Shown here piece after piece: positions 36,711 to 61,610 of a stretch of 64,000 nucleotides of DNA; within the stretch, counting starts at the first letter, position 1, and each line of letters opens with the position of its first letter. Both the position numbers and the translations under genes were made by a program. Source of the stretch: Nocardia sp. NBC_00565 (lineage in GTDB: Bacteria > Actinomycetota > Actinomycetes > Mycobacteriales > Mycobacteriaceae). The notes under the pieces are model-generated. The model was not told the DNA's origin and did not search any database. It saw only the letters and a list, made by a program, of their open reading frames with translations. Location: NCBI RefSeq assembly GCF_036345915.1, contig NZ_CP107785.1, positions 7,130,001 to 7,194,000 on the forward strand. The letters run 5' to 3'.

Positions 36711-39311
36711 ATGAGTGCTGAACCCGAAAATAGTTACCGATCCGGTCTTGGTTCCGATCCGACTCGAGGCTGGGGCGGTCCATTGCTACGTACTGAGAAC
36801 GACGTTGTCGCGGCCTTCTCGACCGCATGGGAATCGGCGGCCTGGGAATCGACCCCGCACCCGCCGGAGATCGCCGACTTTCTGCCCGACGCGCACGCCC
36901 TGCGCCAGGCGGCGCTGATCGAATTGATCCGCGTCGACCTGCGACATCGGTGGATCCGGCGGACCACCACCGCGACGCCGCGCAAGCGCCTTTTCGACTA
37001 CTGCGCCGAGTTCTCCGAACTCGAACCGGGCGGTATTCCGGCGGGTTTGGTGTACGAAGAGTTCGTCATCCGCAGGCAAAGCGGCGAACATGTCGACCCG
37101 CGGGATTGTCTGCGCGAATATCCGGAACAAGCGGCGGAATTGCGAGCGCTGCTCAATGCCGATGATGTCGATCAGAGCACCCGACGGGCCGCGCTCGAGG
37201 ATTCGGTGCTGACCGAGTTCGCCAAGACTCGCGCGGCGGCCGAACGCAGTCGGACCATCCAGGTGAACGAAAACACCGACCTGACCGAAACGGCCCAGCT
37301 GAACCAAACCCTGGGGTCCTTTCGTAATACTGACGTGACTCGCACAACCGTCGAACCCACCGAGACGGCGACCGCCCTTCCGACCACGGTCGGAACCGGT
37401 CCGGGACACTTCGATGCACTCGACCGGATCGAGATCGGCCAGTCCATCGATGATTTCGATCTGCTCACCGGACTCGGCAGCGGCGCCTTCGCCCGGGTCT
37501 TCCTGGCCAGGCAGCGGTCGTTGCAGCGACTGGTCGCGGTGAAGATCTCCGCCGATCACGGCACCGAACCGCAGACCCTGGCCCAGCTCGACCACGACTA
37601 CATCGTGCGCGTCTTCGACCAGCGGCTACTCGGTTCGGATCACGCGACCGACCCGTCCAAGCGCCGACTCCGGTTGCTGTATATGCAGTTCCTGCCGGGC
37701 GGCACACTGCTCAGCGTGCTGCGCTGGGTGCGCGCGACCCCACCCGCCGAACGCAGCGGACAACTGCTGCTCGACGCGGTCGACGCGGCCATGGAGGAGA
37801 AGGGCGAGATCCGGCCGACCGATTCCAGTGTGCGCACCGAGATCGCCGGGCTCAGCTGGCCCGAAACCGTGGCCTGGCTCGGCCGCAGAGTGGCCGAGGC
37901 GCTCGAATATGCCTCGGACAACGGCGTGCTGCACCGCGATGTGAAACCGGCCAATATCCTGCTCACCGCCGAGGCGGTGCCGAAGCTGGCCGATTTCAAT
38001 ATCAGCTTCAGCCGCAATGTGGCGGGCACCAGTCCGGTCGCCTATTTCGGCGGATCGCTGGCGTACATGTCGCCCGAGCAATTGGAGGCCTGCCATCCGG
38101 GCCGCGATCGCACCGCCGAAGATCTGGACACCCGCTCCGATATCTACTCCCTCGGAGTGGTGCTGTGGGAATTGCTGACCGGCGCGAAACCGTTTGATGA
38201 TTCCACCGCGACCGCGACCGACCACGGCGACGATACGGCGCTGGAGGGCATGCTGGAACGCCGCACCGCCGGAGTGGACGACGCCAGCCTGCAACGCGTT
38301 CCGGCGAACTGCCCGGCGGCGCTGCTGCGCGTATTGCTGACCTGTCTGGAATCCGATCGCACCCGGCGCTGGTCCAACGGCGCGATGCTGGCCAAACAAC
38401 TGGATCTGTGCATGGACGCCAGGGCCAGAGATCTGGTCGACCCGCCGCCCGGCAGTTGGCGGCTGCGGATGCGGTCGTGGCGACTCGCGGTCCTCGCGCT
38501 GGCAATCGGTATTCCGAATATCCTGGCCTCGATATACAACATCCAGCACAACCAGCATCTGATCGTGGACCGGCTCCCCAAGGATGCCGGGAACAACTTC
38601 ATGATCATCACCACCGTGGTGAACGGGATCTTTTTCCCACTCGGTTCGGCACTGATCCTGTACATGGCCAGAAGAGTCCTCATGGTGCCGCACGGGCTGA
38701 AACGCCACCGACGTTACGACGCCGAGACGCTGCGGCTGGCCAGGGCGGATACCCTGCTGATCTGTGATCGGGCGGTGCTGGTGGTCTTCTCACTGTGGGT
38801 ACTGGCCGGATTCACCTTCCCGATCGCGCTCGAAGTGGCGGCCGGGGACGTGCCGGCACGGGCAGTGGTGCACTTCCTCACCTCGATCGTGGTGTGCGGT
38901 GCGATCGCGGTGGCGTACCCGTTCTTCCTGGTGTGCTTCTACATGGTCCGCTGCATCTATCCGGTCTTCCTGCGGCACGGGGAGATCAGCACCGAGGACG
39001 CGGTGTGGCTGCGCGGGCTGGACCGCCGCGCCAACGGCTATCTGGCGTTGGCGGCCTCGGTGCCGCTGCTGGCGGTGGCCGGGGTGACCTTCCTGCCACC
39101 CACCGATATTCCGATGGTGATCGGTGCGGTCCGGGTGCTCTGTGTCGGCGGCATCATCGCGTTCATCGGCTCCTACCTGCTCTTCCGGGCACTGGAAGCG
39201 GATCTGCGGGCACTGGAGCGGGTGGTCGCGCCACAGGATTCCCTGGACCGGGAACGCGTTTCGGCGGGACGGGAACGAGCTGTGCCCGCCGCGGCGGAGC
39301 GGCGCTCGTGA
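36711..39311 (+). CDS. Membrane Ser/Thr protein kinase with N-terminal RFP-like domain
   Basis: 866 residues from ATG 36711 (AGG-type site); a GTG 13 codons upstream has none. Three parts. N-terminal (about 30-150): a helical region with ALIELIRVDLRHRWIR and a final DCLREYPEQAAEL, like the extension before many planctomycete kinases. Middle (about 245-570): kinase with glycine loop GSGAFARVF (256-264), Lys278 (VAVKIS), HRD at 408-410 with Asn415, DFN instead of DFG at 428-430, and SPEQ/DIYSLG. C-terminal: about six helices (590-825). HRD and Lys are intact, so it is probably active. GTGA overlap to the paralogue. Confidence 0.88.
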   Translation: MSAEPENSYRSGLGSDPTRGWGGPLLRTENDVVAAFSTAWESAAWESTPHPPEIADFLPDAHALRQAALIELIRVDLRHRWIRRTTTATPRKRLFDYCAEFSELEPGGIPAGLVYEEFVIRRQSGEHVDPRDCLREYPEQAAELRALLNADDVDQSTRRAALEDSVLTEFAKTRAAAERSRTIQVNENTDLTETAQLNQTLGSFRNTDVTRTTVEPTETATALPTTVGTGPGHFDALDRIEIGQSIDDFDLLTGLGSGAFARVFLARQRSLQRLVAVKISADHGTEPQTLAQLDHDYIVRVFDQRLLGSDHATDPSKRRLRLLYMQFLPGGTLLSVLRWVRATPPAERSGQLLLDAVDAAMEEKGEIRPTDSSVRTEIAGLSWPETVAWLGRRVAEALEYASDNGVLHRDVKPANILLTAEAVPKLADFNISFSRNVAGTSPVAYFGGSLAYMSPEQLEACHPGRDRTAEDLDTRSDIYSLGVVLWELLTGAKPFDDSTATATDHGDDTALEGMLERRTAGVDDASLQRVPANCPAALLRVLLTCLESDRTRRWSNGAMLAKQLDLCMDARARDLVDPPPGSWRLRMRSWRLAVLALAIGIPNILASIYNIQHNQHLIVDRLPKDAGNNFMIITTVVNGIFFPLGSALILYMARRVLMVPHGLKRHRRYDAETLRLARADTLLICDRAVLVVFSLWVLAGFTFPIALEVAAGDVPARAVVHFLTSIVVCGAIAVAYPFFLVCFYMVRCIYPVFLRHGEISTEDAVWLRGLDRRANGYLALAASVPLLAVAGVTFLPPTDIPMVIGAVRVLCVGGIIAFIGSYLLFRALEADLRALERVVAPQDSLDRERVSAGRERAVPAAAERRS

Positions 39312-41539
39312 CATCTGCCAATTTCGCGGATCACGGCAAGATCGACGCCATCATCAGATTCACCGAAGATTGGCAGCGCTGCCTGCGCGACGACCGGACC
39401 GAACCACCTCCGATAGCGGAATACGTCCCCGACGGCGCTCGGGTGCGGCTGGCGGTGCTCACCGATCTCGTCCGGATCGACCTGCGCCATCGCTGGGACC
39501 GAGCCGGTCTCGGCAAACGTATTGCCGAATACCGCAAGGAATTCCCCGAGGTCGAGCACAGTGCGGACTTGGTCGATCTGATCTGCGAGGAGTTTCTGGC
39601 CCGGCGCGGCCACGGTCCGCTCGAGCTGACCGATTTCCTCAGCGAATATCCGGAGTTCGCCGAGGACGTCCGCGCACGGCTGGCCGAATTCGCGACCGAC
39701 GACGACACCGTCGCCGATACCGAGCGCGCCGCCGCCTTGGTCGCCGAGCTGACACCTGGCCGCCGGATCGACGACTTCGACCTGATCACCGATCTGGGCA
39801 CCGGCACCCTCGGCCGGGTCTTCCTCGCCAGGCAGCGTTCCATGCAACGCCTTGTCGCCGTGCGACTCTCGGCGGGCCGGGGTGCGGGCGGGCACGGTAT
39901 GGCGCGACTGGATCACCCGCATCTGGTGCGGGTTTTCGATCAGCGACTGATCACCGACAAGTCGGCGACGGCCACCCGGCTGGTCTACATGCAGTACCTC
40001 CCCGGCGGCACGGCGGCCGGGGTGCTCGCGCAACGTGGGTGGCTCCAGGAACCCGACGGCGGCGCCCTGCTGCTGCGCGCCATCGATACCGCTATGGAGG
40101 CCAAGGGCGAGATCCGGCCGACGGATTCGAGTGTGCGTGCCGAGATCGCCGCGCTCAGTTGGCCGGAGACGGTGGCCTGGGTCGGCAGGCGACTGGCGGA
40201 CGCGCTCGATTACGCCGAGCACAACGGCGTGCTGCACCGCAATATCAAGCCGGCGAATGTGCTGTTCACCGCCGAGGGCATTCCGAAGCTGGCCGATTTC
40301 GCCGTCCGCGCGGCGGCACCGCGATCGGTGGCGAATCCGGAGGCGGTCGAACCGGATTCGCTGCCCTACCGCTCCCCCGAACAACTGGCCGAACTCCTCG
40401 ATCCGGCCGCACCCGCACCCGGTCCACCCAGCGATATCTACTCCCTGGGCGCGCTGCTGTGGGAATTGCTCACCGGCGCGATCCCTTTCGACGATCCGCC
40501 GATGCCCGCCGATCCGGACGCCCGCGCCGAAACCTTCGCGACCATGGTGCGCCTGCGCGAGCGCGGGATCACCGAGGCAACGCTCGCGCGGCTGCCCCCG
40601 GACACCCCGAGCACGCTGCGGCGGGTGCTGCTCGAATGTCTGCGTGCCGATCCGAAACGACGCTGGCGCAACGGCGCCGAACTCGCCGCGCAACTCGACC
40701 TGTGCCTCGACGCGCGCGCCAGGGAACTGGTCGATCCGGCGCCGACCAGCCTGGCGTACCGGTCGCGCGGCTGGCTGATGCCGATCCTCGGATTGTGCGT
40801 CGGCGTACCGAATGTGCTGGCCAGTCTCTACAACATCAACCTGAACGAATCGCTGATCATCGATCGGATGACGCTCGCCGAGCAGGAGCGATACTCCGCG
40901 GTGGGACTGATCAACAACCTGATCGCCTTCCCGATCGCCGGACTGCTACTGCTGTTCCTGACCCGCCGACCGCTGACCATCGGATTCCGTTTGGCCCGCG
41001 GTCGCGAGTACTCCCCGCGCACGCTGGCCGCCGCGCGGCGCGACACGCTGCACATGGGTGACTGGGCGGTCTGGGTGCCGTTCGCCTTCTGGCTGATCGC
41101 GGGCGTGGGGTGGCCGTTGGCGGTGGCCTTCACCGGTGTCGATCTGCCGCGCCAGACCTTCCTGCATTTCTTTACCGCACAGCTGGTCTGTGCCGCGATC
41201 GCGCTCGCGTATCCGTTCTTCCCGCTCATGGTCTACGCGGTGCGGTCGGTATATCCGCAACTGCTGGTGCGCGGCGGCATCGGCGTCGAGGATGAACGGC
41301 AACTGCGCAAGGTCGCCGGGCGGGCCAACTTCTATCTCGGCGTCGCCGCGGCGGTGCCGCTGCTCGGGGTGGCCTTTGCGACCTTCGTCGCCGCCGCCGA
41401 CCTGGATTTGGTGATCGTTCCGGTCCGGGTGCTCAGCGTGGGTGGGATCCTGGCATTCGTGCTCACCTACCGGTTGTTTCGGATGCTCGAAGCCGATCTG
41501 CTGGCCCTCGAGCGGGCCATTCCGCAACGGACGCGATGA
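39308..41539 (+). CDS. Membrane Ser/Thr pseudokinase, tandem paralogue
   Basis: 743 residues from GTG 39308, overlapping the kinase stop. Same layout: helical N-terminal region (LTDLVRIDLRHRWDR, FLSEYPEFAEDV), kinase fold (about 155-450), six helices at the C-terminus. The catalytic positions are lost: Arg186 replaces the beta-3 lysine (VAVRLS), HRN (310-312) replaces HRD, and DFA (330-332) replaces DFG; the glycine loop is GTGTLGRVF. Yet structural motifs such as KPANVL and SDIYSLGALLWELLTG stay. It is thus likely a pseudokinase that partners with the active kinase. ATGA overlap with the cyclase gene. Confidence 0.88.
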   Translation: MTSANFADHGKIDAIIRFTEDWQRCLRDDRTEPPPIAEYVPDGARVRLAVLTDLVRIDLRHRWDRAGLGKRIAEYRKEFPEVEHSADLVDLICEEFLARRGHGPLELTDFLSEYPEFAEDVRARLAEFATDDDTVADTERAAALVAELTPGRRIDDFDLITDLGTGTLGRVFLARQRSMQRLVAVRLSAGRGAGGHGMARLDHPHLVRVFDQRLITDKSATATRLVYMQYLPGGTAAGVLAQRGWLQEPDGGALLLRAIDTAMEAKGEIRPTDSSVRAEIAALSWPETVAWVGRRLADALDYAEHNGVLHRNIKPANVLFTAEGIPKLADFAVRAAAPRSVANPEAVEPDSLPYRSPEQLAELLDPAAPAPGPPSDIYSLGALLWELLTGAIPFDDPPMPADPDARAETFATMVRLRERGITEATLARLPPDTPSTLRRVLLECLRADPKRRWRNGAELAAQLDLCLDARARELVDPAPTSLAYRSRGWLMPILGLCVGVPNVLASLYNINLNESLIIDRMTLAEQERYSAVGLINNLIAFPIAGLLLLFLTRRPLTIGFRLARGREYSPRTLAAARRDTLHMGDWAVWVPFAFWLIAGVGWPLAVAFTGVDLPRQTFLHFFTAQLVCAAIALAYPFFPLMVYAVRSVYPQLLVRGGIGVEDERQLRKVAGRANFYLGVAAAVPLLGVAFATFVAAADLDLVIVPVRVLSVGGILAFVLTYRLFRMLEADLLALERAIPQRTR

Positions 41540-42258
41540 CCGTCCCGTCCGCACCGCCGCCGTTCGGGCGGCTGGTCAGCCTGTCCCACGTGCAGGATCC
41601 GGCGACGACACCGCTGTTCCCTGGTGACCCCGAATTCCGGACCGATATCGTCGCGACGGTCGCCGACGACGGCTACTACCTGCGCTATATCCAGCAGGGT
41701 GAGCACACCGGAACCCATTGGGGCGCACCGATTCACTTCCACGCCGACGGGCTGGCCGCGGACGAACTGGATCTCGAGGACCTCCTGCTGCCCGCGGTGA
41801 AGATCGATGTGCGCGACCAGTGCGCCCATGATCGGGATTATCCGATCGGCGTCGATGATCTGCGGCAATGGGAAACTCGGCACGGGCGGATACCCGATGG
41901 GTCGGCGGTGATCGCCTGGACCGGGTGGGATGCGAAGTGGGGGACGCCGGAGTTCATCGGCGCCGGCGAAGATGCCGATCACCAGCCGGGATTCGCGGTC
42001 GAGACGGTCGAATGGTTATTGCGGACCGGCAGAATCGGGCGGCGCGGCGCGCTCGGGATCGATACCTTCGGGCCGGACCTCGGGACCGATGAGAGCTATG
42101 CGGTCTCGAAGCTGCTGTATCGCGAGCACCGGATCAGTCTGGAGTGTCTGGCGAATCTGGCCGAATTACCCGCGACGGGGGCATGGGTGTTGGTCGGCGG
42201 GGCGCTCTATCGCGGCGGGTCCGGTTCGCCCGCAACGATTTTCGCGCTGCTGCCCTGA
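41536..42258 (+). CDS. Cyclase-family (kynurenine-formamidase-like) metal hydrolase
   Basis: 240 residues. The family metal motif is HTGTHWGAPIHF (about 54-65), matching HxGTHxxxPxH; later Glu/His candidates lie in the middle (GAGEDADHQPGF). Members include kynurenine formamidase and isatin hydrolase, zinc or manganese enzymes. It is translationally coupled to the pseudokinase (ATGA), which is odd for a metabolic enzyme. No other tryptophan genes are near, so the substrate is open. Its TGA directly abuts the hpt stop on the other strand with no space for a terminator. Confidence 0.85.
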   Translation: MTVPSAPPPFGRLVSLSHVQDPATTPLFPGDPEFRTDIVATVADDGYYLRYIQQGEHTGTHWGAPIHFHADGLAADELDLEDLLLPAVKIDVRDQCAHDRDYPIGVDDLRQWETRHGRIPDGSAVIAWTGWDAKWGTPEFIGAGEDADHQPGFAVETVEWLLRTGRIGRRGALGIDTFGPDLGTDESYAVSKLLYREHRISLECLANLAELPATGAWVLVGGALYRGGSGSPATIFALLP

Positions 42259-61492: not shown

Positions 61493-61610
61493 TCCGAGTC
61501 CGCGCTTGCCGCACCCGGTCGGGCTGCGGCCCGGTCGTCACCCGGAGCACCCCACCGCGGAGGAGGGTTGCCGACCAGCTAGCCGGGGCTTGACGCTGGT
61601 ACTCATGACC
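61493..61610 (-). ncRNA. SAM-IV-type riboswitch
   Basis: The minus strand carries the segments GGTCATGAGTACCAGCGTC, AAGCCCCGGCTAGCTGG, CGGCAACCCTCC, CGCGGTGGGGTGCTCCGGGT and GACGACC, then CCGCA...TGCGG (inner CCCG/CGGG) and GCAAGCGCGGACTC. These are hallmarks of actinobacterial SAM-IV aptamers as I recall them: P1 with GGTC/GACC, the SAM-binding core around CGGCAACC, and the 3' pseudoknot partner. It controls the class V aminotransferase. Confidence 0.85.

Follow-up and report, generated by a model that had tools for sequence, protein, structure and literature searches.

The accessible part of one survey (PMC12599244) sorts bacterial pseudokinases into families and describes them as largely unexplored experimentally. 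ActPs2 is defined there by an arginine in place of the beta-3 lysine, an Asp-to-Asn change in the HRD motif, a deletion of DFG in most members and a C-terminal membrane region, and about 90% of its members carry a 32-residue insert between beta3 and alphaC together with one of about 250 residues in the activation loop. The same part describes MviN (ActPs3) as a membrane-linked actinobacterial pseudokinase for which scaffolding was proposed. Here we analyze a tandem pair of membrane kinase genes, K1 and K2, in Nocardia sp. NBC_00565. The window is a stretch of 64,000 nucleotides, positions 7130001-7194000 of a 9.71-Mb single-contig genome (NZ_CP107785.1). K1 has the residues of an active Ser/Thr kinase, and K2 is a constrained paralogue in which the pair of residues that anchors ATP is lost. 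We lean towards reading K2 as a dedicated non-catalytic regulatory or scaffold subunit of K1. The two genes and their parts are as follows.

36711..39311, + strand: K1, an intact-looking membrane Ser/Thr kinase of 866 residues (open reading frame, Pfam, residue alignment)
36792..37160, + strand: N-terminal helical domain of K1, residues about 28-150 (helices in the model)
37449..38435, + strand: kinase domain of K1, residues about 247-575 (Pfam, alignment)
37542-37544, 37938-37940 and 37992-38000, + strand: K1 kinase sites Lys278, HRD Asp410 and DFN
38478..39230, + strand: six-helix membrane region of K1, residues about 590-840 (hydropathy, model)
39308..39311, + strand: GTGA, a 4-base overlap with the K2 start on the K1 stop
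39308..41539, + strand: K2, a degenerate paralogue and putative pseudokinase of 743 residues with a GTG start (open reading frame, Pfam, alignment, model)
39329..39697, + strand: N-terminal helical domain of K2, residues about 8-130 (model)
39764..40741, + strand: kinase-like domain of K2, residues about 153-478 (alignment, model)
39863-39865, 40241-40243 and 40295-40303, + strand: K2 kinase-like sites Arg186, HRN Asn312 and DFA
40769..41527, + strand: membrane helices of K2, residues about 488-740 (model, hydropathy)

Anatomy of the pair and the lesion in K2

A first, sequence-only reading of this locus had taken K1 and K2 for tandem paralogues, and this is borne out: the proteins are 52% identical across the kinase and membrane region, and the peptides GEIRPTDSSVR and WPETVAW are present in both. 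Pfam recognizes a Pkinase domain in each (5e-31 in K1, 7e-23 in K2), and in the same scan no Pfam family was matched by the N-terminal and membrane parts of either. At one hydropathy cut-off, six membrane segments are found in K1 and five in K2. The AlphaFold model of K2 (mean predicted local distance difference test score, pLDDT, 86) has a PknB-like fold with a template modelling score (TM-score) of 0.79 to a PknB chain, followed by a run of C-terminal helices at residues 490-737; no helix is modelled between beta3 and beta4, where confidence is lower. Between its beta-3 Lys and the LxH motif, K1 is 11 residues shorter than PknB, and K2 has this spacing too, suggesting that a reduced alpha-C is common to the pair. 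The alpha-C region is 11 residues shorter than that of PknB even in the active-type K1. Window K1 and K2 each have 30 residues from DFx to SPEQ.

Active kinases carry a beta-3 Lys, an alpha-C Glu, an HRD Asp, a catalytic-loop Asn and a DFG Asp. The corresponding motifs in K1 are VAVK with Lys278, Glu286, HRD Asp410, Asn415 and DFN at 428-430. For comparison, 120 K1 loci from other Nocardia were collected, 60 picked by a K2 match and 60 by a K1 match, and the catalytic residues of relatives were read by alignment to window K1 and K2. K1 and 120 of 120 Nocardia K1 relatives have all five residues, consistent with an active enzyme. The sequence-only reading had counted DFN as a flaw of K1, but the motif is found in 120/120 K1 proteins, in all 13 active second copies that accompany some of them, and in 33/33 kinases of other genera. 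By these counts DFN is the kinase family's normal motif and not a defect.

The window K2 reads VAVR with Arg186, Gly194 where K1 has its Glu, HRN with Asn312, Asn317, and DFA at 330-332. A copy was called degenerate when the beta-3 Lys, the HRD Asp or the DFG Asp was absent. Among 77 readable K2 relatives the beta-3 residue is Arg in 76 and Trp in one, with Lys in none, and the alpha-C Glu is lost in 73 of 75 readable K2 records and retained in two. The other positions are better kept: the HRD Asp is retained in 56/77 relatives (lost in 21/77), the DFG Asp is present in the window K2 and in 74/77, and the catalytic-loop Asn is kept in 68/77. HRN was observed in the window K2 alone, with Asn at that position in 0/77 relatives, and the Gly-loop is eroded in several of them. 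As read from these counts, what K2 proteins have consistently lost is the ATP-anchoring Lys-Glu pair, with Arg in place of the beta-3 Lys and the alpha-C Glu gone, and not the whole triad. The proposal that K2 had lost its Lys, HRD Asp and DFG therefore stands for the Lys; the metal-binding DFG Asp is kept, and HRN is a trait of the window copy.

Distribution, age and constraint of K2

Downstream of K1, the 120 loci hold a degenerate K2 in 77 cases, an intact kinase in 12 and no second kinase in 31 (including a locus cut by a contig end); seven of the 31 have none of the searched flanking genes and may be another locus (L135, L156-L158, L161, L162, L164). K1 lies directly upstream of K2 in 60/60 loci selected by K2 match, and no K2 apart from K1 was seen among fetched loci with a readable upstream side; at G019, K2 and a cyclase gene lie at a contig edge and the upstream side is unread. 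The K2 frame is open in 75/77 loci and falls into two frames in the other two (L073, L115). At 12 loci (L109-L111, L120, L121, L123, L124, L129, L136, L137, L139, L140) the second copy is active and represents an independent duplicate of K1, lying 7 kb away at L136 and adjacent at the other 11, with L137 a triple kinase array. In its own genome, the window pair is accompanied by five further full copies (L009-L013), each retaining Lys, Glu, HRD, Asn and DFN. A broken family member in two separate pieces was also seen there (L014, 2756580-2757430), and one Nocardia locus (L232) has a lone kinase gene split between two frames, about half identical to K1 and K2 alike.

K1-type matches (E <= 1e-180) were found in 128/148 Nocardia genomes and K2-type matches (E <= 1e-50) in 134/148, the window's genome and paralogues counted in both. 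Across the taxonomic family, a K1-type match at E <= 1e-70 is present in 63/201 genomes and 13/31 genera. Samples of the class (296 genomes, 246 by profile) were searched with the top few candidates per genome scored, and all kinase matches lay inside the same taxonomic family (5/296 genomes, 3/246 by profile); the K1 membrane region alone gave matches in 3/246 class-sample genomes, all of them from Nocardia itself. From other genera, 20 loci were fetched of 51 genomes with a match, representing 9 of 12 genera. All 33 fully read kinases at these loci are intact (one record cut by the stretch end was omitted), hpt is present at 19/20 and a cyclase gene at 2/20.

The age of K2 was assessed with two trees. 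The main tree (230 rows, fragments shorter than 450 residues omitted) groups 76 of the 77 degenerate copies, that of the window among them, into one clade with support 100; the 13 active second copies make up a separate clade nested inside K1. A second tree of 84 chosen rows likewise places 19/20 degenerate rows in one clade (Shimodaira-Hasegawa approximate likelihood-ratio test, SH-aLRT, 100) and 7/7 active second copies in one. The exception in both trees is the second kinase at L144:6349-8505, whose first ~200 residues are K2-like and whose remainder is for the most part closer to its own K1 than to K2. This kinase is probably a K2/K1 chimera produced by recombination between the tandem genes. 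K2 apparently arose once, by duplication within the kinase family; the root between K2 and the remaining family is an uncertain midpoint placement, and the duplication may also have preceded the genus, with loss elsewhere, rather than occurred in Nocardia.

Constraint was measured as the ratio of nonsynonymous to synonymous substitution rates (dN/dS), pairwise against 8 relatives with a simple counting method. For K2 it is 0.21-0.30 in the kinase-like domain, 0.18-0.28 in the membrane region and 0.19-0.28 in the N-terminal domain; in the K1 kinase domain it is 0.08-0.18, below that of the K2 kinase-like domain. A single clade under purifying selection argues that K2 is not the product of recent decay, which we rule out. 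The sequence-only reading had named intact K2 homologues in close relatives as the mark of such decay, and no intact copy was found in the K2 clade. The active second kinases could have been taken for intact K2 proteins, an assignment that their separate clade among K1 rules out. A pseudokinase is defined by loss of at least one catalytic-triad residue and conservation of that loss over time; in K2 the Lys is absent from 77/77 readable relatives, within one clade and under purifying selection.

K2 as a partner of K1

The start of K2 lies on the stop of K1. An in-frame candidate start at the same -4 position is found in 68/77 K1-K2 pairs, as against 0/12 loci with an active second copy, and in 52 of the 68 it is the sole candidate in the stretch examined. 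Among the 11 adjacent active copies, four share the -4 frame but show no start at that place, and the 68 overlapping pairs span both main branches of the K2 clade. This difference points to coupled production of K1 and K2, probably by translational coupling, which would set their ratio. Scans for promoters and terminators gave no signal above shuffled sequence.

Some K2 proteins also carry inserts in the N-lobe. These are 17-278 residues long and are present in 28/75 K2 proteins, 23 of them at residues 215-223 (the beta4-beta5 loop, window-K2 numbering) and five at 237-251; the window K2 has none. Within the insert, the motif [DEH][DEHAS]T[VI]A is found in 19/75 K2 proteins, always at beta4-beta5 and 2-5 times in 18 of the 19 (L065, L069, L071, L072, L074-L084, L086-L088, L091). 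It occurs 55 times in 4311 insert residues, while two sets of 200 shuffles averaged 0.67 and 0.54 hits and never exceeded 3. This comparison is descriptive only, since the pattern was chosen after some inserts had been seen and the 19 carriers are for the most part closely related. In whole proteins, 121 K1 sequences give 8 hits (shuffled mean 3.8), and none is found in the 13 active second copies, 33 other-genus kinases or five paralogues of the window's genome. The linker of the window K2 contains one DDDTVAD. Disorder of the inserts was judged from composition. The motifs presumably resemble kinase or FHA sites. No mycobacterial phosphosite consensus matching them was found in the accessible parts of PMC4389566, PMC2875399 and PMC5448819.

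The overlap, the shared membrane architecture, a pattern in which K2 occurs only with K1 while K1 frequently lacks K2, and the constraint on the K2 fold all fit K2 as a partner of K1. K1 would be a Ser/Thr kinase of the active type that is held in the membrane by six helices and signals there. K2, derived by duplication within the kinase family, would have lost its beta-3 Lys and alpha-C Glu and been kept as a non-catalytic partner, with the overlapping genes yielding it together with K1. Contact between the two proteins would most likely run through the membrane and kinase-fold parts in which they are homologous. K2 may then modulate K1, by allosteric activation or restraint, and/or serve as a phospho-acceptor scaffold for downstream binders, while the cyclase could be a co-expressed passenger or accessory. 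A more specific version is tentative: in a receptor pair whose ratio is set by coupling, K2 might gate K1, and in one set of species the beta4-beta5 threonine array might be phosphorylated by K1 and dock FHA-type readers.

Several observations weigh against K2 as a partner of K1. The DFG and HRD aspartates that most K2 proteins retain leave residual nucleotide binding or catalysis possible. The window K2 is without the threonine-motif insert, and the 19 carriers are mostly close kin. K1 manages without K2 at the 31 lone and 12 active-copy loci, the K1 tree implies at least 9 switches in K2 presence, and the 20 loci from other genera showed no degenerate copy. The starts in the overlaps are candidates, the 68 pairs share ancestry and are not independent, and overlapping starts are common in actinobacterial operons. 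Finally, the model of K1 has a low-confidence N-lobe and was kept out of the mechanism reasoning. The sequence-only reading had proposed an active kinase with an obligate pseudokinase subunit; the long conservation of K2 and the overlapping genes agree with such a subunit, and "obligate" is not supported, given a lone K1 in 31/120 loci and an active copy in 12/120.

K2 might instead still be an enzyme, in which Arg replaces the beta-3 Lys, nucleotide is held in another mode, and slow phosphorylation or transfer of another group takes place. Such a K2 would agree with its retained DFG Asp (74/77), HRD Asp (56/77) and catalytic-loop Asn (68/77), and SelO and SidJ are given as pseudokinases with other activities in the accessible part of PMC12599244. 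We nevertheless find an enzymatic K2 rather unlikely: the alpha-C Glu is lost in 73/75 records, the HRD Asp in 21/77 and in the window, the Gly-loop is eroded in several relatives, and constraint is weaker than on the K1 kinase domain. Somewhat less likely again is a K2 that works apart from K1 as a membrane receptor or scaffold, has partners of its own and is only co-expressed with K1. The 31/120 Nocardia loci with K1 and no second kinase, and the faster evolution of the K2 kinase-like domain, would fit separate roles. However, K2 was never seen away from K1 where the upstream side is readable, the 4-base overlap is conserved, and the natural K2/K1 chimera suggests that the membrane regions are exchangeable, all of which speak against a separate K2.

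A third gene follows the pair, with these features.

41536..41539, + strand: ATGA, a 4-base overlap with the cyclase start on the K2 stop
41536..42258, + strand: cyclase-family gene (PF04199) of 240 residues, loosely associated with the pair (Pfam 1e-35)
41704-41736, + strand: HTGTHWGAPIH, with Gly63 at the metal-ligand Asp
42118-42120, + strand: Tyr195, aligned with the catalytic-base His of isatin hydrolase (printed alignment)

The three-gene arrangement with overlaps at GTGA and ATGA is as the sequence-only reading described it. The tie of the kinases to a small-molecule hydrolase, which it also proposed, is weak: the cyclase gene is found behind 50/77 K1-K2 pairs, 7/31 lone K1 genes and 0/12 loci with an active second copy. 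No correlated gain or loss of K2 and the cyclase was detected on the K1 tree by independent pairs, a test with little power at 8 pairs. "Small-molecule hydrolase" is itself unproven, since the cyclase lacks the metal-ligand Asp. The family metal motif is given as HxG[T/A]HxDxPxH in the accessible part of PMC6117287, and the metal motif of kynurenine formamidase and isatin hydrolase is not matched by the window cyclase. Its best solved matches are the cyclase-family protein 8f9x (5e-39) and isatin hydrolases (6e-33). The metal-ligand Asp is retained in both of the printed matches, in contrast to Gly63 here; Tyr195 aligns with the base His of isatin hydrolase, and the GLQC/GLAS signature is absent. 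Gly for Asp is found in 59/59 cyclase genes at the fetched loci and, among the best 120 of 6096 database relatives, in 59/59 closer ones and 58 of the next 61 (three without a motif match). By this count the Gly marks a wider actinobacterial cyclase subfamily and not the kinase operon, and the protein could be a pseudoenzyme or an altered enzyme.

It is, in our judgment, highly unlikely that the three genes work as one unit, with the cyclase-family enzyme under the control of the kinase pair. The cyclase has a -4 start on the K2 stop in 45/50 cases (on the K1 stop in 3/7), and it follows K1 in 2/20 other-genus loci. On the other side, 27/77 K1-K2 pairs are without it, correlated evolution was not detected (low power), the metal-ligand Asp is absent, and its close relatives among the matches listed come from Umezawaea, Saccharothrix and Actinoplanes, whereas the kinase matches in the class samples stay in one family. 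The cyclase thus appears to be a loose associate with a weak tie to the kinase pair. A functionless, decaying K2 is hardly credible, in spite of its varying catalytic residues, the at least 9 changes of presence on the K1 tree and the two frames in 2/77, and is largely refuted by purifying selection (dN/dS 0.18-0.30 in all three domains), open frames in 75/77 and an Arg that hardly varies even between deep branches. Elsewhere in the window, a SAM-IV riboswitch was found at 61497-61610 on the minus strand (110.9 bits).

Comparison with known kinases

The nearest solved fold to the kinase-type domains of both K1 and K2 is that of PknB, the mycobacterial PASTA-type kinase. Unlike PknB, the pair has an N-terminal helical domain and C-terminal membrane helices and no PASTA, and K1 has DFN, not DFG. 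Assignment to the PASTA kinases (PknB/Stk1) was rejected, with NF033483 scoring 121 and 90 bits against a cut-off of 450 and no PASTA domain in the Pfam scan. The MADS6 / PD-T4-6 anti-phage kinases were rejected as well (NCBIfam MAD6, 101 and 92 bits against a cut-off of 460); in PADLOC the best-matching stretches fall on the kinase domain, and the cyclase is without a match (partner genes were not searched individually).

K2 resembles ActPs2 in its beta-3 Arg (window and 76/77 relatives), its C-terminal membrane region and its actinobacterial origin. The HRD Asp-to-Asn change of ActPs2 is matched by the window K2 and by 0/77 relatives, 56 of which have Asp. Unlike ActPs2, K2 is without a DFG deletion (DFA in the window, Asp in 74/77), has a shorter beta3-alphaC stretch and has no activation-loop insert; where K2 proteins do carry inserts, these lie near the beta4-beta5 loop and not at the ActPs2 sites. 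Membership of K2 in ActPs2 is rejected on the DFG and insert features. MviN, according to the accessible part of PMC12599244, has VALT and no DFG and is a different protein, whereas K2 has HxD in 56/77 relatives and a DFG Asp in 74/77, with an active-type sister adjoining.

No description of a pair of the K1-K2 type was found in literature searches on bacterial pseudokinases and Nocardia kinases, subscription journals being mostly outside the coverage. For K2, genetics provides a likely partner, a neighboring and overlapping gene of the same architecture. The natural series of genomes with K1 alone, with K1 and the pseudokinase, and with K1 and a second intact kinase makes the effect of a pseudokinase on its catalytic sister testable. 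In eukaryotic pairs such as HER3-HER2 and the two JAK domains, a kinase fold without catalytic function controls a catalytically competent relative. These systems would be analogous to K1-K2 in the way they work, given the interaction proposed here, although their architecture differs.

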